DNA of 61,042 bases. Source: Chitinophaga pinensis. Lineage in GTDB: Bacteria; Bacteroidota; Bacteroidia; UKL13-3. The notes beneath the pieces were generated by a model that saw nothing but the letters and a program-made list of their open reading frames with translations, searched no databases and was not told where the DNA came from. Location: the NCBI GenBank assembly GCA_945861965.1, contig CAMAWM010000011.1, positions 1 through 61,042 on the forward strand. Reading direction: 5' to 3'. Of the stretch, positions 6,740 to 53,804 are shown piece after piece. Each line of letters starts with the position of its first letter. The first letter of the stretch is position 1. Made by a program: the position numbers and the translations under genes.

Positions 6740-6757
6740 CTCATCCTTTTAAAAGTA

Positions 6758-6788
6758 AAAAGCCGCAAACCTGAAGTTTGCGGCTTTT
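6758..6788. terminator. Bidirectional intrinsic terminator
   Basis: A perfect 13-bp stem (AAAAGCCGCAAAC pairing with GTTTGCGGCTTTT) with a CTGAA loop and T runs on both sides lies between convergent ssb (plus) and the OmpA-family gene (minus). Confidence 0.9.
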
Positions 6789-6793
6789 CTTTT

Positions 6794-37271: not shown

Positions 37272-38063
37272 ATGAAAGAAATTAAATTAAAAATGATGCC
37301 CGAACGCATTGCGAAACCTCGTCAAAAGGGATTAACAATGGTTATGGACAAAGGTCTAAGCATTCGCGAAGCCGAAGACATGCTTTCAGTATCTGGAAAT
37401 TATATTGATATCGTAAAATTGGGATTTGGTACTGCTATACTAACTCCAAATTTGGAAGATAAAATTAAATTATACCAATCGAATAATGTACTTGTTTACT
37501 TTGGCGGAACATTATTTGAAGCATTTTTAGTTCGAAATCAATTTGAAGATTTTATAAAATTTCTTGAAAAATATAAATTAAAGCATGCCGAAATTTCTGA
37601 TGGTTCAATTGATTTGCCACACGAAAAAAAATTGGAATACATTAAAATTCTAAGCAAACACGTAACGGTTTTGAGCGAAGTGGGAAGCAAAGACGTAGAA
37701 AAAATAATGCCTCCGTATCAGTGGATTGAATTGATGCAAGCCGAATTAAAAGCCGGAGCATGGAAAGTAATAGCTGAAGCGCGCGAAATGGGAAATGTTG
37801 GTGTTTACAGAAGCAGTGGCGAAGTACGCGAAGGATTGGTACAGGAAATTTTGACAAAAATTCCGAGCGATAAAATTATTTGGGAAGCGCCTTTGAAAGC
37901 ACAACAAACGTATTTTATTAAATTGGCTGGCACGAATGTTAACCTTGGAAACATTGCCACCAACGACATTATTCCTCTCGAAACATTAAGACTTGGATTG
38001 CGTAGCGATTCGTTTAATTTCTTTTTAGGAAGAGGCACAAAGTATGTTTCTAAAAAAAGATAA
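37272..38063 (+). CDS. comA: Phosphosulfolactate synthase
   Basis: 263 residues of the ComA family, a TIM barrel that adds sulfite to phosphoenolpyruvate, giving 2-phosphosulfolactate. The N-terminus with GLTMVMDKGLS, the middle VKLGFGTAIL and YFGGTLFE, ISDGSIDLP, VLSEVGSKD and the GLRSDSFNFF end agree with the family. Together with comB this would make 3-sulfolactate. It is monocistronic, divergent from the Cys-rich gene, and convergent with the LuxE-like gene. Confidence 0.88.
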   Translation: MKEIKLKMMPERIAKPRQKGLTMVMDKGLSIREAEDMLSVSGNYIDIVKLGFGTAILTPNLEDKIKLYQSNNVLVYFGGTLFEAFLVRNQFEDFIKFLEKYKLKHAEISDGSIDLPHEKKLEYIKILSKHVTVLSEVGSKDVEKIMPPYQWIELMQAELKAGAWKVIAEAREMGNVGVYRSSGEVREGLVQEILTKIPSDKIIWEAPLKAQQTYFIKLAGTNVNLGNIATNDIIPLETLRLGLRSDSFNFFLGRGTKYVSKKR

Positions 38064-38088
38064 AAACTTATTTCTGATTAAGCAATTA

Positions 38089-39072
38089 TCAAATAGTTAA
38101 TAGACTGCAACCTCTCAAATCGCTATTGTCTAACCTACCTAAAACTTCAAATGTTTCATCGTCAAAAACTTTTCCAATGTCCGAAGTTTTCAAAAAACAG
38201 CAAGAGTAAATATTAGCCAAGTCAATTACATTTATAATACCATTTTTAGCGTTTTGAGTTTTAGAAAATACATCGTTTATTTCAGTAGTAAATACTTTCA
38301 CCCATGGCGGGGATTCAAATTTTCCATCTTGTTTTGCGTAAGCCTGACTTAGCATTTCTGTCATTCCATATTCTGAATGAATGTTTGAAACACGAAATGA
38401 TTTTTTTAAATATTCGTGCACTTCAGGTCGTGTAATTTCTTTTCTTCTTCCTTTCATGCCACCGGTTTCCATAACTATCAACTCAGGAAAATCAATTGAA
38501 TATTCTTCTACAAAATCTAACAATGCAAAAGTAGCACCCAGCAAAATTGTTTTCTGGTTTTGTGCTTTTAGTTGCATTAAATTTTGTTTCAAATTATCAA
38601 ATTCATTCAAATAAAATCCACTTAGTTTATGCTTGCTTGTTGTAATTAATTGTTTGCACATGTACACAAGCGAAGAGTTTTCTCGTTCGAGATACGAAGG
38701 AAGCAATGCCAGAAAACAATAGGTTTCTATATCGCCATAAAAGAGTTCAAATCCCTTAAAAAAACTCTTTTTATAAATTTCAATGTCGGCAACAAAATGT
38801 TTGCTTTTAGTTTCTCCGCTGCTTTCAAAAATTATTTCCGACTTCTTTTGGTTTAAAAGGATTGATTTATTTTTAAAAAACTCGATAGGAATAAATGGAA
38901 TCTGCGAAAGATTTTTAATAGTATTGTTATCCAATACGCCAACAAGTTTGCAATATTCATTGTACACATCGTTGTTGTTGTATTGATAATGAAAAGCATC
39001 CAATGCTAATTCGTCAAAATTTTTTAACTTTGAACTGAAAATGCAGTTTATGAATTTTTTTATGTCAAACAT
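38089..39072 (-). CDS. LuxE/PaaK-family acyl-protein synthetase-like enzyme
   Basis: 327 residues. The adenylating motif is FESSGETKSKH, close to the FxSSGTTG-type motif of LuxE; later segments KTILLGATFALLDF, VMETGGMKGRRKE and HSEYGMTEMLSQAYA also match LuxE-like proteins. In luminous bacteria LuxE activates fatty acid with ATP and passes it to the reductase; no lux genes are here, so it more likely activates an acyl group for surface-polymer or lipid synthesis. Divergent from the lipoprotein gene. Confidence 0.85.
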   Translation of the reverse strand: MFDIKKFINCIFSSKLKNFDELALDAFHYQYNNNDVYNEYCKLVGVLDNNTIKNLSQIPFIPIEFFKNKSILLNQKKSEIIFESSGETKSKHFVADIEIYKKSFFKGFELFYGDIETYCFLALLPSYLERENSSLVYMCKQLITTSKHKLSGFYLNEFDNLKQNLMQLKAQNQKTILLGATFALLDFVEEYSIDFPELIVMETGGMKGRRKEITRPEVHEYLKKSFRVSNIHSEYGMTEMLSQAYAKQDGKFESPPWVKVFTTEINDVFSKTQNAKNGIINVIDLANIYSCCFLKTSDIGKVFDDETFEVLGRLDNSDLRGCSLLTI

Positions 39073-39097
39073 TTTTTATGCAACAAGAAATTATTTT

Positions 39098-39625
39098 ATG
39101 CTCTTGTTTTGTTTTTTTGTTTTGATTGGAGCATGCAAAGAAAAAGAAATTTATCCGGCTATTCCCAGCATTCAATATAAATCGGCATACTTTATTTCTG
39201 GCTCAAATGGAAAAGATTCATTAATGAAACTGATTTTTACATTTAAAGATGGAGATGGAGATATTGGATTAAAAAATGAGGATACACTTTCTCCATTTAA
39301 TCCTGTTTTTGATTCAACAAACAAAAGTCTAAATCCATACTATTTTAATTTATATGTAAATTATACGCATAAAATAAATGGCGTTTTTGAACCTTTTATT
39401 TTTCCATTCACTACCGATTCTCTCAATTACCAATATCGAATTCAGTATTTAACTCCAGACGGAAGACACAAAGCCATTCGTGGCGACATTGAAGTGATGC
39501 TTGTGCCAGCACCAATTTTTAGCACAGCAATTTACGACACTGCAAAATATTCGTTTTATATTTACGATCGCGCCTTGAACAAAAGCAACAATACAGAAAC
39601 GCCCCCATTGGTTTGGAGACGTTAA
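39098..39625 (+). CDS. Putative lipoprotein, unknown function
   Basis: About 175 residues. It starts MLLFCFFVLIGACKEKE, a lipoprotein signal with the lipobox IGAC. The middle contains FTFKDGDGDIGL, a Gly/Asp motif common in Bacteroidota lipoproteins of unknown role (calcium binding is possible but not shown). I chose ATG at 39098 because it places the lipobox correctly and avoids overlap with the divergent LuxE-like gene; an ATG at 39062 would overlap it. Confidence 0.7.
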   Translation: MLLFCFFVLIGACKEKEIYPAIPSIQYKSAYFISGSNGKDSLMKLIFTFKDGDGDIGLKNEDTLSPFNPVFDSTNKSLNPYYFNLYVNYTHKINGVFEPFIFPFTTDSLNYQYRIQYLTPDGRHKAIRGDIEVMLVPAPIFSTAIYDTAKYSFYIYDRALNKSNNTETPPLVWRR

Positions 39626-39649
39626 TTCAATATTTAATGTATTCGTGAT

Positions 39650-39916
39650 TTAAAATTCATCATCGTCATCGTCATCAAAATCTTCGTATGAAGTTTCTTT
39701 AATTTTTATTTCTTTGTCGTCAATATCTTCTTCTCCCTGATCGTCTTGATCTACATCGTTATAATCATCTACTTTCTTTTCATCATCATCAGCGTCTAAA
39801 TCATCGTCTTCCAAATCCTCCAAATTTTTATTCTTGTTCATATGAATTTCATGTCTGTTAGCTTCAGAAAAAATGCTTTGTGCAAGTTCGGTAGCAGATA
39901 TTGATTTCACTTTCAT
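39650..39916 (-). CDS. Highly acidic small protein, unknown function
   Basis: 88 residues. The first ~30 residues look ordinary (SATELAQSIFSEANRHEIHMNKN); the remaining two thirds are dominated by Asp and Glu, including runs DDDLDADDDE and FDDDDDDEF at the end. No signal peptide or membrane segment. Such tails resemble intrinsically disordered nucleic-acid-mimic or chaperone segments. I do not recognise a family, and low complexity makes the coding call less certain, although the frame is closed and the start is a clean ATG. Confidence 0.6.
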   Translation of the reverse strand: MKVKSISATELAQSIFSEANRHEIHMNKNKNLEDLEDDDLDADDDEKKVDDYNDVDQDDQGEEDIDDKEIKIKETSYEDFDDDDDDEF

Positions 39917-40156
39917 TTTTTTATAAAACTTAAATGCAGTACAAATTTAAAAATAATTTTTTTTATAAACGAAAAGATTTTTAATAAAGATTTCTGCGTG
40001 TAAAATAAATTTACAGAAGATTAAAAAGCAAGTATTTTTCAAACTATTTTTTTTGATTTATTTATAATTGTTCTAAAAAAAGAAATGATAAGAAACAAGC
40101 AGTGTAAGTTATTTAAAAACTTTTTATAGTTTAGCCTCCTAAAAATTAATATTATT

Positions 40157-41257
40157 TTGAAAATAGCAGTTTTAAAAGAAACACGCCAAAACGAAAATCG
40201 TGTAGCATTAACGCCCAGTGTTTGTTCGCAATTAATTAAACAAGGTTTTGAATGTTTGGTTGAGCAAGGAGCTGGCTATAATTCAAATTTTGATGATTCG
40301 GTTTATGAAAATGCGGCTTGTAAAATAGTTTCAAAAGAAGAAGCATTGACCACAGCGCAAATTGTAATTAAGGTGAATCCCCTAAGCGATGAGGAAATAA
40401 ATACAATAAAAGAAGGAGCGGCATGCATTTCTTATTTATATGCATCAACACATCCCGAATTGGTCCAAAAACTAGCAGCCAAAAATATTTCTGCATTTTC
40501 GATGGACGCAATTCCGCGAATAAGCCGAGCGCAGAATATGGATGCACTAAGTTCACAAGGAAATCTTGCTGGATACAAAGCGGTTATTTTAGGCGCAAAT
40601 CATTTGTGTAAAATTTTTCCTTTAATGATGACAGCGGCTGGTACAATTACCCCTTCGCGCGTTTTAATTTATGGCGCTGGTGTTGCAGGTTTGCAAGCCG
40701 TTGCTACAGCTAAACGATTGGGCGCAATTGTAGAATGTACAGATGTTAGGCCTGATACCAAAGAACAAGTTGAATCATTGGGAGCTAAATTTATTCAAGT
40801 AAATACAGAAGAGGTTGCTAAAGTAGAAGGTGGTTATGCCAAAGAAGTTTCTGAAGATTATTTACAAAAACAAAAAGAAGCGGTAGACAAAAGTTTGTTT
40901 CAGGCCGATTTGGTAATTGCTACTGCATTGGTAATGGGTAAAAAAGCGCCTGTTTTGATCACCGAAGCGCAAGTTAAAAAAATGAAATTAGGAAGCGTAA
41001 TTGTTGATATGGCAGTTGAACAAGGCGGAAACTGCACACTCAGCGAACACGATAAAGTGATTACTAAATATGGAGTTACCATAGTTGGCAAAAGCGATTT
41101 TGCCTCATCATTAGCGCAAAATGCAAGCGAACTTTTTGCAAAAAACATCCAAAACCTACTCATACATCTTGCAACTAAAGATGGTTTTAAATGGGAAATG
41201 GAGGAAGAAATTACCAAAGGAACTTTAATTACTCATCAAGGAAAAATTTTAAAATAA
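40157..41257 (+). CDS. pntAA: NAD(P) transhydrogenase subunit alpha, part 1
   Basis: 366 residues: the cytoplasmic NAD(H)-binding domain I of proton-translocating transhydrogenase. It begins MKIAVLKETRQNENRVALTPS, the family N-terminus, translated from a TTG codon at 40157; no ATG lies close by in frame. The NAD loop is LIYGAGVAGLQAVATAKRLGA, with DVRPDTKEQVESLGA after it. The three-gene split (AA, AB, B) is the usual Bacteroidota form. The 240-bp spacer 39917-40156 shows no gene or recognisable structure. Confidence 0.95.
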   Translation: MKIAVLKETRQNENRVALTPSVCSQLIKQGFECLVEQGAGYNSNFDDSVYENAACKIVSKEEALTTAQIVIKVNPLSDEEINTIKEGAACISYLYASTHPELVQKLAAKNISAFSMDAIPRISRAQNMDALSSQGNLAGYKAVILGANHLCKIFPLMMTAAGTITPSRVLIYGAGVAGLQAVATAKRLGAIVECTDVRPDTKEQVESLGAKFIQVNTEEVAKVEGGYAKEVSEDYLQKQKEAVDKSLFQADLVIATALVMGKKAPVLITEAQVKKMKLGSVIVDMAVEQGGNCTLSEHDKVITKYGVTIVGKSDFASSLAQNASELFAKNIQNLLIHLATKDGFKWEMEEEITKGTLITHQGKILK

Positions 41258-41272
41258 ATTAATACTAAAAAT

Positions 41273-41575
41273 ATGGAAACGGTTTTTGCTTTTGTAACAA
41301 ATCATCTCGAAATGTTCTATTTAGTTATACTTATGATTTTTGTAGGTATTGAGCTTATTGGACATGTTCCTTCAGTGCTTCATACTCCATTAATGAGCGG
41401 AGCCAATGCCATTCATGGCGTTGTTATTATCGGTTCAATCATAGTTATGGGACAAGCAAAAGAGACCTCGTCTTTAATTCTTGGTTTTCTTGCAGTTGTA
41501 CTTGGGACATTAAATGTGGTTGGTGGATTTGTAGTTACCGACAGAATGCTTGAAATGTTCAAAAAGAAGAAATAG
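41273..41575 (+). CDS. pntAB: NAD(P) transhydrogenase subunit alpha, part 2
   Basis: A 100-residue membrane subunit with three hydrophobic helices (about 16-36, 46-62, 65-88). The LHTPLMSGANAIHGVVIIG stretch is the conserved membrane-domain II motif, including the GxNAIHG segment. It forms part of the proton channel with PntB. It starts 15 bases after pntAA; a foreign element separates it from pntB. Confidence 0.93.
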   Translation: METVFAFVTNHLEMFYLVILMIFVGIELIGHVPSVLHTPLMSGANAIHGVVIIGSIIVMGQAKETSSLILGFLAVVLGTLNVVGGFVVTDRMLEMFKKKK

Positions 41576-41601
41576 GGGTTAGTTGATGGTTGTTAGAAAA
41601 C

Positions 41602-42067
41602 AATATTGAATATCGAATAAGAAATGTTGAAGTAAAAAACAACTAAAATGCAAAATAACGAATTGAATGAAAAAAGGAAGTTTGACTTAGAAGATAGGTT
41701 AATTGATTTTGCAATTAAAGTTATTGAAATAGTTGAATTAATACCTTCTTCAAGAGCAGGGAGTCATATTGCAGGGCAGTTAGTAAGAAGTGGAACATCA
41801 CCAGCATTGAATTATGGTGAAGCACAAAGTGCAGAATCAAGAAGTGATTTCATACATAAAATGAAAATATGTTTGAAAGAATTGAGAGAAACAAAAATTA
41901 GTTTAAAAATTATCTATAAAAAACCACTAGTAATAGAATTAGAAATAGTACAAAAATTGATAACTGAAAATGACGAATTAATATCCATTTTTATGAAAAG
42001 TGTCTCAACGGCTACCGAAAATAAAAAAACTTCATAATTTATTATTCCTTATTCAGTGTTTGATATT
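41602..42067 (+). mobile_element. IVS-like element: inverted-repeat-flanked four-helix-bundle gene inside the pnt operon
   Basis: A 466-bp insertion between pntAB and pntB. Its ends form a long RNA stem when transcribed: 41602-41626 (AATATTGAATATCGAATAAG...) pairs with 42043-42067 (TATTCCTTATTCAGTGTTTG...), about 25 positions with only two non-pairs if G-U wobbles are allowed, and a few more pairs inward. The loop encodes an S23-type four-helix-bundle protein. This is the architecture of intervening sequences in 23S rRNA, which RNase III excises. Here the host is an mRNA, so the element may be a mobile IVS relative that tolerates or exploits processing. The boundaries are inferred from the repeats. 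Confidence 0.65.
41648..42037 (+). CDS. Four-helix-bundle protein (23S rRNA intervening-sequence protein family, S23/IVP)
   Basis: 129 residues, all helical. The segments LEDRLIDFAIKVIEIVELIPSS, HIAGQLVRSGTSPALNYGEAQ, SRSDFIHKMKICLKELRET and AENDELISIFMKS-like end agree with the S23/IVP family, relatives of which (bAvd) bind RNA or assist diversity-generating retroelements. The gene is enclosed by inverted repeats and interrupts pntAB-pntB, although it leaves all reading frames intact. Its base composition is similar to the neighbours. Function of the free protein is unknown. Confidence 0.85.
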   Translation: MQNNELNEKRKFDLEDRLIDFAIKVIEIVELIPSSRAGSHIAGQLVRSGTSPALNYGEAQSAESRSDFIHKMKICLKELRETKISLKIIYKKPLVIELEIVQKLITENDELISIFMKSVSTATENKKTS

Positions 42068-42082
42068 AAATAAAAAAGAAAA

Positions 42083-43540
42083 ATGGAAAACAACATTCTA
42101 CAAATAATCTACTTAATTGCCTCAGTTACTTTTATACTTGGTTTAAAATACTTGGGCAATCCTGGCACTGCTCGAAAGGGAAATTTGATTGCCGCTTTTG
42201 GAATGGCACTTGCAATTTTTGCAACCATTTTTTTGTATAAAAACGAAGAGGGGAATAACCTTGGAAATCTTCAATATATTTTTGGAGGGATCTTACTAGG
42301 AACTATTATTGGTTGGCTTGCAGCCAAAAAAGTGCAGATGACAGCCATGCCCGAAATGGTAAGCTTATTTAATGGAATGGGAGGCGCTTGTGCCATGTTA
42401 ATTTCTGCTATCGAATTTAATCACATAATAACTTCGCTAAATGAAGCTCCAGCATTTTTTTTGCTAGTACTTGGCGAAAACGGATTTAATCCATTTGCAG
42501 GAATATTGTTAACCATTATCACAGGCCTTGTTATTGGTTCAGTTTCATTTGCCGGAAGTATAATAGCTTGGGGTAAACTTAGCGGAAAAGTAAAAGACAA
42601 GTCTTTTCCGTTTCAACAATTTATAAACGTAGGAATGCTTTTAGTAATTCTGTTTTTTTCATATCAAGTTGTTGCAATGAAATCAGAACAATTTGTAACA
42701 ATATTTTATTTAGTTTGGTTTCTTGCACTGCTTTATGGGGTGTTATTTGTGTTGCCGATTGGCGGTGCCGATATGCCTGTCGTCATTTCATTGTTAAACT
42801 CTTTTACAGGAGTTGCAGCTGCTTGCGGTGGGTTTTTATACGACAACAAAGTAATGTTAGTTGGTGGAATTTTAGTTGGTTCGGCAGGTACACTTTTAAC
42901 CATAGTAATGTGCAAAGCCATGAATCGATCTTTGTTAAATGTATTGATTGGAAATTTTGGTGGAAGCGCAAAAGGCGAAGCATTAACTTCAGCTTCTTTT
43001 CAAGGATCTGTAAAAGAAGTGAAAGCAAGCGATGCTGCGATTTTAATGAAATACGCCAAAAAAGTAATCATCGTTCCTGGTTACGGTTTGGCTGTTGCAC
43101 AAGCACAACATGTTGTTCATGATTTGGAAAATTTATTAGAGAGCGAAGGTGTAGAAGTAAAATATGCAATCCATCCTGTTGCCGGAAGAATGCCAGGACA
43201 TATGAATGTATTGTTGGCAGAAAGCAATGTTAGCTACGATAAATTAATAGAGATGGAACAAGTAAATCCTGAATTTTCTACAACCGATGTTGTTTTAGTT
43301 GTTGGTGCAAACGATGTGGTAAATCCTGCCGCCAAAACGGATCCTTCTTCGCCAATTTACGGTATGCCAATATTGGAAGTTGAAAATGCTGCCCATGTTA
43401 TTGTAAATAAAAGAAGCATGAAAGCCGGTTATGCCGGAATTGAAAATGAATTATTCTACAAACCAAAAACCAGCATGTTATTTGGCGATGCTAAAAAAGC
43501 ATTGACCGAACTGGTAACGGAAATAAAAAACCTGGGATAG
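42083..43540 (+). CDS. pntB: NAD(P) transhydrogenase subunit beta
   Basis: 485 residues: about eight to nine membrane helices in the first 270 residues, then the NADP(H)-binding domain III (about 310-485) with GYGLAVAQAQHVVHDL, GRMPGHMNVLLAE, VVLVVGANDVVNPAA and a closing MLFGDAKK. With PntAA/PntAB it uses the proton gradient to make NADPH from NADH. It begins 15 bases after the end of the IVS-like element, so its mRNA may be separated from pntAA/AB by processing. Confidence 0.95.
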   Translation: MENNILQIIYLIASVTFILGLKYLGNPGTARKGNLIAAFGMALAIFATIFLYKNEEGNNLGNLQYIFGGILLGTIIGWLAAKKVQMTAMPEMVSLFNGMGGACAMLISAIEFNHIITSLNEAPAFFLLVLGENGFNPFAGILLTIITGLVIGSVSFAGSIIAWGKLSGKVKDKSFPFQQFINVGMLLVILFFSYQVVAMKSEQFVTIFYLVWFLALLYGVLFVLPIGGADMPVVISLLNSFTGVAAACGGFLYDNKVMLVGGILVGSAGTLLTIVMCKAMNRSLLNVLIGNFGGSAKGEALTSASFQGSVKEVKASDAAILMKYAKKVIIVPGYGLAVAQAQHVVHDLENLLESEGVEVKYAIHPVAGRMPGHMNVLLAESNVSYDKLIEMEQVNPEFSTTDVVLVVGANDVVNPAAKTDPSSPIYGMPILEVENAAHVIVNKRSMKAGYAGIENELFYKPKTSMLFGDAKKALTELVTEIKNLG

Positions 43541-43627
43541 TTCAAGTATTTTTCCCAAATAATTTTATTGAACGACTTAAAAATTTATTGCAAAAATTAG
43601 TTTTCCAAAACTGAAATTAAAATTACA

Positions 43628-43852
43628 TTTGCCTCGCTTTCGGTTTCCGATATTCAATATCGGAATGAAAAGGGAACACCGTGAAAAACGGAGACAGTAC
43701 CCGCTGCTGTAAGCACCTTTTGAGATTTATGATTGGATTTTTTCAAACTAAAACCTCAAGTTTTTACCTCTTCGTTGTCACTATTTCTCAAGTATCGAAA
43801 TGGGAAGGCAAGGTAAAAAAGGTGTAAGTCAGAAGACCTGCCGCATTGCAAA
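43628..43852 (+). promoter_or_regulatory. Cobalamin riboswitch
   Basis: A B12-sensing leader. Seen in order: a basal helix (TTTGC 43628-43632 with GCAAA 43848-43852), a perfect palindromic helix TTCCGATATTCAATATCGGAA (43645-43665), AAAGGGAACACCGTGAAAAACGG, CCCGCTGCTGTAAGC, TCACT...GAAATGGGAAGGC, and the B12 box-like AGTCAGAAGACCTGCC. These are the conserved elements of the class, as in other Bacteroidota. The expression platform before the btuB ATG (43853-43994) has no clear terminator, so control may act on translation. This leader fills most of the 454-bp gap 43541-43994. Confidence 0.9.
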
Positions 43853-43994
43853 ACAAAAAATCATTGCCGCTTTCGGGAAAAAAAGCAGATGATGCGATAG
43901 GTAAAATTTTGCTTTATTGATGCAATAAAAAACCCAATTCGTTTCGTTTATTTTTTTAACTGATGGCAATTTAATTGTTCGATTAAAATTTGTC

Positions 43995-45869
43995 ATGTTA
44001 AAATATTTTTTTACATATTGTATTTTGATGTTTTGTTTGTTGAGTGTTTTTGCTCAAAACAAAGTTGCGGATACTATCTATTTAAACGAAACAAATATTC
44101 AAACTTTTCGTGCCAAGCAATTTTTTATTGGAAGCAATCTTCAGTTGATCGACTCGCTTTCAAAAAGCACAAAACAACAACAATCTTTAAGTGAATTGTT
44201 AAATGAAAACGCAAGTGTTTTTATTCGCAACTACGGCAACGCAAGTTTATCGACAGCCAGTTTTAGAGGAAGCAATTCTTATCACACAGCGGTTTTATGG
44301 AATGGAATTAATTTGCAAAATCCGATGAACGGGCAAATTGATTTTTCGTTGATGCCAGTTTTTTTAAGCGATGAAATTACGATTCAATATGGCGGAAATG
44401 GTAGTTTGTTTGGCTCGGGTGCAGTTGGAGGAGTGGTGCATTTAAACGACAAGCCAAAATTTAATTCTGGATTTAAAAGCGAAATACTTTTAGGCGCAGC
44501 AAGTTTTGAAAACTTTCAGCAAGCAGTTAAAATTAGTTACGGAAACAATACATTTTATACATCAACAAAAGTTTTAAATCAAAATGCAGCAAACAATTTC
44601 AATTACATTTATAAGGAGAAAGAATTTAATCAAACACATGCAGGTTTTGTTGCACAAGGATTTCAGCAACAGATAAGTTTATTATTAAAAAAACAAAAAC
44701 AACTGACTATTTATGCTTGGTGGCAACGTAACGAAAGAGATATTCCTTCGGCACTGTTAACTACAAATATTCATTCAAAACAAAACGATGAAACCCAACG
44801 ATTGGCAATTGAATTTAAACAATCAAATAAAAAACATCTGATTAATTTTCGCACAGCATTGTTGAATGATGAATTGAATTATACAGACGACAATACAGCA
44901 AAACAAAAAAACAACAGCCGCGCATTCAACACGCAATTGGAAGATTTTATTTTTGTCAATTCAAAAAATAAAATTCATGTTGGCATCAACCATATTTTCG
45001 GTTCAGCTCAGGTTGATGGGTACGACAAAGAAATTTCGCAACACCGAATTTCGGCATTTGCTTTTTATCGTTCGGCATTTTTAACTAATAAAATCATCAG
45101 TGTTTTTGGTTTACGGCATGAATTGATCGATGGGAAATCTATTCCTGTTATGCCAAGTTATGGATTTGAAATTTTGTTAAATAAATTTAAATTTTTTGGA
45201 AATGTTTCTCGCAGTTATCGAATTCCAACCTTCAATGATTTGTATTGGAAAATAGGAGGAAATCCAAATTTGAAATCAGAAGAAGGGTGGAATCAAGAAT
45301 TAAGCTGTTTATTTAACACACAACATTCAGCAATTAATTTATCTGCTACTTTAACAGGATTTAATCGAAACATGAATGATTTGATTCAATGGTTGCCCGA
45401 TGCAGGAAATTATTGGACACCATTAAATGTTAGTAAAGTTTGGAGTCGTGGCAGCGAGTTTCAAACAAAAATAATTGGAGATTTATACAGCATAAAAATT
45501 ATTGCTGCATATTCTAACACCTATGTAATTTCAACTAACGCAGGCGAAACGGATAACAATTATCAAAAGCAATTGATTTACGTTCCGCGATGGAAACACA
45601 CTACAAATGTTTCTTTACTTTATAAAAAACACTATTTAAGATTTAACCAAAATTATGTCAGCACAATTTTTACTTCCTCAGACAACAATAGTTGGCTAAG
45701 TCCTTTTTATGTTTCAAATTTATTCTGCGGAACAGCTTTTTCATTAAAAAAATTGCAACTGAAAATCGCTGCTGGCATCAATAATTTATTGAATGAAAAC
45801 TACCAAGTAGTATTAAACCGACCGATGCCATTACGAAATTATCAATTATCAATAAACATAAATCTATAA
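43995..45869 (+). CDS. btuB: TonB-dependent outer-membrane receptor, BtuB-type (B12 uptake)
   Basis: 624 residues. Signal peptide ending near SVFAQ (about 21); plug domain with SELLNENASVFIRNYGNASLSTASFRGSNSYHT and GVVHLNDKP; then a barrel of about 500 residues ending in an aromatic-type strand (NYQLSININL). Its place directly behind a cobalamin riboswitch and before BtuG-like and T9SS surface proteins makes vitamin B12 (corrinoid) the likely ligand. It needs TonB-ExbBD; an exbB/exbD pair is at 59199-60279. Confidence 0.88.
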   Translation: MLKYFFTYCILMFCLLSVFAQNKVADTIYLNETNIQTFRAKQFFIGSNLQLIDSLSKSTKQQQSLSELLNENASVFIRNYGNASLSTASFRGSNSYHTAVLWNGINLQNPMNGQIDFSLMPVFLSDEITIQYGGNGSLFGSGAVGGVVHLNDKPKFNSGFKSEILLGAASFENFQQAVKISYGNNTFYTSTKVLNQNAANNFNYIYKEKEFNQTHAGFVAQGFQQQISLLLKKQKQLTIYAWWQRNERDIPSALLTTNIHSKQNDETQRLAIEFKQSNKKHLINFRTALLNDELNYTDDNTAKQKNNSRAFNTQLEDFIFVNSKNKIHVGINHIFGSAQVDGYDKEISQHRISAFAFYRSAFLTNKIISVFGLRHELIDGKSIPVMPSYGFEILLNKFKFFGNVSRSYRIPTFNDLYWKIGGNPNLKSEEGWNQELSCLFNTQHSAINLSATLTGFNRNMNDLIQWLPDAGNYWTPLNVSKVWSRGSEFQTKIIGDLYSIKIIAAYSNTYVISTNAGETDNNYQKQLIYVPRWKHTTNVSLLYKKHYLRFNQNYVSTIFTSSDNNSWLSPFYVSNLFCGTAFSLKKLQLKIAAGINNLLNENYQVVLNRPMPLRNYQLSININL

Positions 45870-53730: not shown

Positions 53731-53804
53731 TGGGCCCTGTTGGAATCGAACCAACCACCCCCTGATTATGAGTCAGATGCTCTAACCGAATGAGCTAAGG
53801 GCCC
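53731..53804 (-). tRNA. tRNA with CAU anticodon, probably tRNA-Ile2 (lysidine type)
   Basis: Read on the minus strand it starts GGGCCCUUAGCUCA and ends AGGGCCC plus discriminator A; the 7-bp acceptor stem pairs perfectly. The D arm is GCUC...GAGC, the anticodon loop is CUCAUAA (anticodon CAU), and the T arm has GGUUCGAUUCC. CAU can mean elongator Met, initiator Met or Ile2. The GGGCCCUUAGCUCA start and GACUCAUAAUC loop look more like E. coli ileX than either Met tRNA, so I favour Ile2, modified by TilS. CCA is not encoded. Confidence 0.9.

Follow-up and report, generated by a model that had tools for sequence, protein, structure and literature searches.

The window, that is, the whole 61,042-nt stretch of DNA analyzed here, probably harbors a compact, intervening-sequence (IVS)-like S23 element, which was acquired as a unit, in sense, between pntAB and pntB, and whose heptad core matches its S23 type. 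It is apparently a mobile, patchily distributed IVS-type cassette and not a regulator of pnt. The element and its surroundings comprise the following features:

40157..41257, + strand: pntAA, NAD(P) transhydrogenase alpha part 1, TTG start (ORF; Pfam AlaDh_PNT_N and AlaDh_PNT_C)
41273..41575, + strand: pntAB, 4TM part, host gene 5′ of the element, intact (ORF; PNTB_4TM, E 3e-32)
41579..41596, + strand: TTAGTTGATGGTTGTTAG, perhaps left over from an earlier element of another type, type C (direct reading, with inference)
41602..41633, + strand: left arm, degenerate heptads GAATATC GAATAAG GAAATGT TGAAGT (duplex and fold energy; lag-7 excess 0.14 in gap 41576-41647)
41648..42037, + strand: S23-type four-helix-bundle gene, 129 aa (ORF, profiles, AlphaFold model, Foldseek)
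42029..42067, + strand: right arm, inverted heptads (duplex and fold energy; lag-7 excess 0.26 in gap 42038-42082)
42083..43540, + strand: pntB, host gene 3′ of the element, intact (ORF; PNTB, E 1e-180)

The S23 gene and its arms

An earlier note had described an IVS-like S23 element, an ORF inside terminal inverted repeats, inserted between pntAB and pntB without breaking a frame, and this description was confirmed. The S23 ORF was the sole gene within the element, the ORF listing giving no second one. Its product matched both PF05635 (E 3e-11; 43.9 bits, cut-off 33.8) and TIGR02436 (E 2e-21; 76.4 bits, cut-off 24), and its AlphaFold model was a four-helix bundle (pLDDT 88), for which Foldseek returned 2rld, a solved S23-family protein, as best match, and also 2gsc. 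By profile scores above the curated cut-offs and by fold, the product is a member of the S23 (23S rRNA-intervening-sequence) protein family. The gene is under purifying selection, with a dN/dS of about 0.05 against the copy in the relative G076, and its expression probably relies on the pnt promoter. Against Rfam, the element gave nothing at the gathering threshold. Apart from the element, we noted that the pntAA start codon at 40157 appears to be TTG, not ATG, that a Cobalamin riboswitch (RF00174, 80.7 bits) lies at 43624-43859, 5′ of an ORF at 43995 resembling a TonB-dependent receptor, and that a tRNA gene is located at 53731-53804 on the - strand.

The arms paired in two registers. In that of the earlier note, 41602-41626 with 42043-42067, there were 18 Watson-Crick pairs, five G-U pairs, and two non-pairs, as claimed, while the minimum-free-energy (MFE) register joined 41602-41633 with 42029-42060 through 25 Watson-Crick and two G-U pairs over 32 positions. 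The right arm, which overlaps the final 9 nt of the S23 ORF, thus ends at 42067 in the former register and at 42060 in the latter, and the two lie exactly 7 nt apart because the arms are built of 7-nt units. The duplex of the arms alone reached -25.2 kcal/mol, versus -12.1 ± 2.9 kcal/mol for dinucleotide shuffles, none of which (0/2000) was as good. Folding of the transcript, a check proposed in the earlier note, placed the terminal stem in both the MFE and the centroid structures (z = -2.84; 0/100 as good). Under scoring without a G-U reward and with wider flanks, the window copy was weak, with z = 2.0 and 5% of shuffles scoring at least as high. Taken alone, it is a weak and degenerate copy, so the case for the arms rests on the family of relatives. 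Within the window, the only intergenic stretches above the threshold for a 7-nt period were the two S23 flanks and a terminator-like gap at 6740-6793.

Heptad arms across S23 loci

Our survey covered 167 usable, distinct S23 loci, some orthologs included, from relatives, pnt loci, plasmids, and GTDB genomes; the relatives' genomes (G handles) are partly metagenome-assembled and some are contaminated. Inverted-repeat flanks (score z > 3) were present at 122 of the 167 loci (73%), versus eight of 332 size-matched control positions in the same loci (2.4%). The remainder, about 27% of S23 loci without a clear inverted repeat, counts against our preferred explanation. Both S23 flanks displayed a 7-nt period with harmonics at 14, 21, and 28, and the lag-7 excess was 0.119 in S23 flanks and 0.022 in intergenic DNA elsewhere in these loci, with 60% and 11%, respectively, lying above the threshold. 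In most loci, the heptad units were oppositely oriented on either side of the S23 gene. Plasmid copies had such arms as well: all 10 cyanobacterial copies examined had z of at least 4.6, mostly with plain repeats, such as the TAATTCG units on either side of the gene in Dolichospermum and the successive CAGTGAC units in Euhalothece, and a Treponema plasmid copy also carried such arms (z of at least 4.6). Additionally, a Planktothrix S23 gene (L287) was flanked by CCCCAAT units, which we take to match the STRR1A primer. The layout, an S23 gene inside heptad-built inverted repeats, is common to many bacterial phyla.

Between co-directional genes, 119 of 124 elements were in sense, and the upstream gene was on the S23 strand for 132 of 141 elements, compared with 53 of 71 control genes. 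Since control genes were also mostly co-directional, this same-strand excess is moderate, though significant; such a bias would be expected if the elements are expressed by read-through. At the pnt locus of G060 (L136), the left arm had about 18 GAATNNN heptads and the right arm about five, an inequality which implies that arm length changes by gain and loss of heptad units. We also observed S23 genes adjacent to CRISPR adaptation genes on two cyanobacterial plasmids, between cas2 and cas1 on the opposite strand in Anabaena cylindrica (L146), and directly 5′ of cas1 in Pseudanabaena (L285).

Across loci without DNA-similar neighbors, heptad-spectrum similarity tracked S23 protein identity (Mantel r 0.37, p 0.001), the mean cosine rising from 0.13 below 40% identity to 0.28 at 60-70% and 0.375 at 70% or more. 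Dissimilar S23 genes within one genome did not share heptads above background. Judged from these sequence comparisons, the heptads follow the S23 protein and not the host genome, and belong to the element. Type-A heptads recurred in Bacteroidota, Planctomycetota, and Thermodesulfobacteriota, with arms of approximately GAATATCGAATATCGAACAAGGAAT... in Brocadiaceae, Desulfobacteraceae, and Bacteroidota, the window arms resembling an eroded form of these. Within an S23 type, an element's own arms were mostly not the best pair, and arms were largely interchangeable, on which ground locus-specific compensatory evolution of the arms was rejected. Carriage by phages was likewise rejected, as IMG/VR gave no type-A relative and only two distant phage matches.

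The search for similar flanks with an S23 gene at other sites, which the earlier note had called for, uncovered such elements in further operons, nuo and kor among them. In nuoJ-nuoK, an element was present in G019, while its congener G007 had a 6-nt gap there (gene identity by Pfam). In korA-korB, the element of G017 (L267) was intact, and that of the window's own genome (L229; G000:C3 near 37946) was internally deleted with both heptad arms kept. A warning attaches to 'four helix bundle' genes within operons, which are not to be taken as operon parts. In the covered part of the window genome's 23S rRNA, we detected no large insertion. Against our preferred explanation also stands that the analysis revealed neither a transposase nor a target-site duplication nor active movement. 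Elsewhere in the same genome, at a contig edge (L265/L004; G000:C39:1-700), a bAvd-type gene (PF22296) followed the apparent end of a DGR variable protein, with no reverse transcriptase recognized on the 6 kb fetched.

The strongest competing explanation is that heptad arrays are independent, STRR-like intergenic repeats in or near which S23 genes merely land. Most GAATNNN arrays of the family do stand alone: among the 33 fetched, 32 had no S23 match and 27 had no convincing inverted partner, and the pnt gap of G034 contained a strong heptad hairpin with no gene. Arms and gene are hence not inseparable, which is the main caution on the link that we propose. Yet such landing would not account for the opposite orientation of units across the S23 gene, for heptad identity tracking S23 type rather than genome, or for how seldom a 7-nt period occurs in the remaining intergenic DNA of these loci, and we regard it as unlikely. 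One lone array of ATTCAAC heptads (L231; G000:C27 near 19519) was situated in an apparent coding sequence similar to that of a glycine dehydrogenase.

The pnt site in the family and the proposed selection on RNA

Among about 60 pnt loci of the family, the site was empty in about 40 and occupied in 19. The pntAB-pntB gap was bimodal in the scored loci, falling within -5 to 118 nt in one group and within 457 to 687 nt in the other. All 18 long gaps held an S23 gene, as did G032, which was counted outside the 18 because its locus is split over two contigs; the genes were of three unrelated types with different heptads. The start of contig G032:C1 (L035) showed a snap-back, its last 22 bases being the reverse complement of the S23 gene start, likely an assembly artefact, with contig C130 continuing the locus. 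Occupied sites were distributed over seven genera, and genus g6 alone included S23 types A, B, and C as well as empty sites. Several loci looked scarred. By eye, the gap of G086 resembled both type-B arms joined, and that of G001 retained the right end of a type-A element, while the S23 copies of G027, G032, G066, and G004 contained stop codons. Immediately outside the window's left arm, TTAGTTGATGGTTGTTAG at 41579..41596 resembled, again by eye, the left arms of the type-C elements that G005, G080, and G081 carry at this site, and is a possible relict of an earlier element.

Between the window and G076, which belongs to another genus, the S23 protein was 94% identical (dN 0.026, dS 0.49) and pntB 72% (dN 0.40, dS 1.35); the pairs L107/L108 and L113/L114 were left out of the S23 dN/dS comparison since their reading frames were misaligned. 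Identity fell outside the cassette, at the pntB start and in pntAB, from which it follows that the cassette was acquired independently of its neighbors, by insertion or local recombination. Horizontal acquisition of the cassette is thus shown, as is a patchy pattern in which several S23 types occupy the site. The types at pnt could be exchanged by homologous recombination rather than insertion, and the AU test did not reject one common origin for the type-A copies at pnt (p 0.32).

In the earlier note, the stem was proposed to be cut by RNase III and selected as RNA, separating the pntAA-AB and pntB mRNAs and thereby balancing the subunits. The stem is present in the predicted structures, as given above, the sense duplex in the window is more stable than the antisense one (-25.2 vs. 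-18.7), and rRNA IVS undergo RNase III cutting (PMC4990558). Nonetheless, the argument from wobble pairs to selection on RNA failed. If RNA pairing were selected, G-U should exceed A-C, and the arm mismatches over 99 loci comprised 339 G-U and 353 A-C (p = 0.62), with 93 G-U and 88 A-C in the best-paired arm cores; heptad copying could blunt the signal in this test, and its positive control of six tRNAs was too small to use. Nor did orthologs clearly favor pairing on the sense strand, with 19 pairs kept and 29 broken in sense versus 17 and 33 in antisense, and in the sister copy of G076 the antisense duplex was the more stable one. A pnt-specific balance of subunits is also at odds with a site empty in about two thirds of family loci and otherwise occupied by three unrelated S23 types, as it is with the same kind of element in the unrelated nuo and kor operons. 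As for an empty pnt locus that still contains both repeats, which the earlier note held to speak against its proposal, a heptad hairpin without a gene does exist, most clearly in G034, but its heptad differs from that of the window. We consider RNA-level balancing of the subunits very improbable. The transcript could still fold into the stem and be cleaved there; the stem sequence bears no sign of its RNA form being maintained.

The least credible alternative, which we disfavor, takes S23 to be an ancestral gene of the host's pnt operon, passed down vertically and since lost from many lineages; the recurrence of occupied sites across seven genera and the purifying selection on S23 would fit it, but it is contradicted by three unrelated types at one site, all of them together with empty sites inside genus g6, by an S23 gene less diverged than its neighbors between the window's genome and G076, and by the copies with stop codons.

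Under the preferred reading, a mobile S23 cassette, a single S23 gene lies between terminal inverted repeats of 7-nt units whose core sequence is tied to the S23 type, and the whole would have entered in sense between pntAB and pntB as one unit, with the host pnt promoter presumably driving its expression. The arms would be the element's ends, which the S23 protein would recognize in DNA or RNA form, as suggested by the heptad-S23 correlation and the Avd-like fold, and spread would most likely be selfish. The stem would perhaps be trimmed by RNase III, as in rRNA, harming neither cistron; a cut would be tolerable in a polycistronic mRNA because each cistron remains whole.

Comparison with known systems

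To our knowledge, IVS, known since about 1990, have no agreed origin or function, and the intergenic heptamer repeats that we know of have been described as of unknown function. Those IVS that carry an S23 ORF have been reported in the 23S rRNA of Coxiella and Leptospira; the Coxiella IVS is 428 nt long, with heptameric repeats directly upstream of S23p and a decaying S23 gene (PMC4990558). The window element is akin to these in its gene family, its similar size (about 470 nt), the enclosure of the ORF by terminal inverted repeats that pair into a stem, and a sporadic, horizontally acquired distribution. It also has heptameric repeats upstream of S23, degenerate in the window and plain in relatives, a likeness to a trait reported for Coxiella only and not a proven part of the definition. 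Unlike rRNA IVS, it lies between the mRNA cistrons pntAB and pntB and not in a 23S rRNA helix, and for this reason of location we call it IVS-like rather than an IVS. Moreover, purifying selection acts on its S23 gene, which is intact, in contrast to that of Coxiella, and its excision is putative.

The cyanobacterial STRR are 7-bp units able to form hairpins between operon genes, as in hupS-hupL (PMC2670836). The window element is similar in having a 7-nt period and a hairpin between operon genes, and differs in that its heptads are degenerate and that STRR, as described, enclose no gene. Heptamer repeats with the sequence TAACTGA, known from Beggiatoaceae, Cyanobacteria, and Bacteroidetes, are intergenic and of unknown origin (PMC4679880). 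These too are 7-nt direct repeats from overlapping bacterial groups, but a link to S23 was not reported for them, and the S23 flanks surveyed here contained no exact TAACTGA doublet. Finally, Avd works with a reverse transcriptase in DGR retrohoming (PMC10053308) and shares its fold with the window's S23 protein (TM about 0.70 by Foldseek to the Avd structures 4dwl and 8ub7, more distant neighbors than 2rld). The identity of the window protein as a DGR accessory protein was rejected, as it matched PF05635 and not bAvd PF22296, and no reverse transcriptase or TR/VR was recognized among the ORFs of 38000-45500, part of which were searched with profiles.

The protein family is established. What we propose in addition is that some heptamer repeats are arms or remains of S23 elements; in the open-access literature we found no account of an S23-heptad link beyond the single Coxiella remark. 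We tentatively raise a broader possibility, which we hold with less than even confidence: S23 elements may make up a class of bacterial mobile elements with one gene each, their ends being heptad arrays particular to the S23 protein that the element encodes. On this view, rRNA IVS would be those that happened to enter rRNA, and heptad hairpins lacking a gene, STRR among them, would at least in part have arisen from such elements by deletion. Movement might proceed by some host or reverse-transcription route, with S23 as the recognition factor, by analogy with Avd in DGRs. S23-matched heptad arms would tie rRNA IVS to intergenic heptamer repeats and provide a rule for finding S23 elements and their decayed remains, and the match suggests a direct biochemical question, namely whether each S23 protein binds its own heptads.
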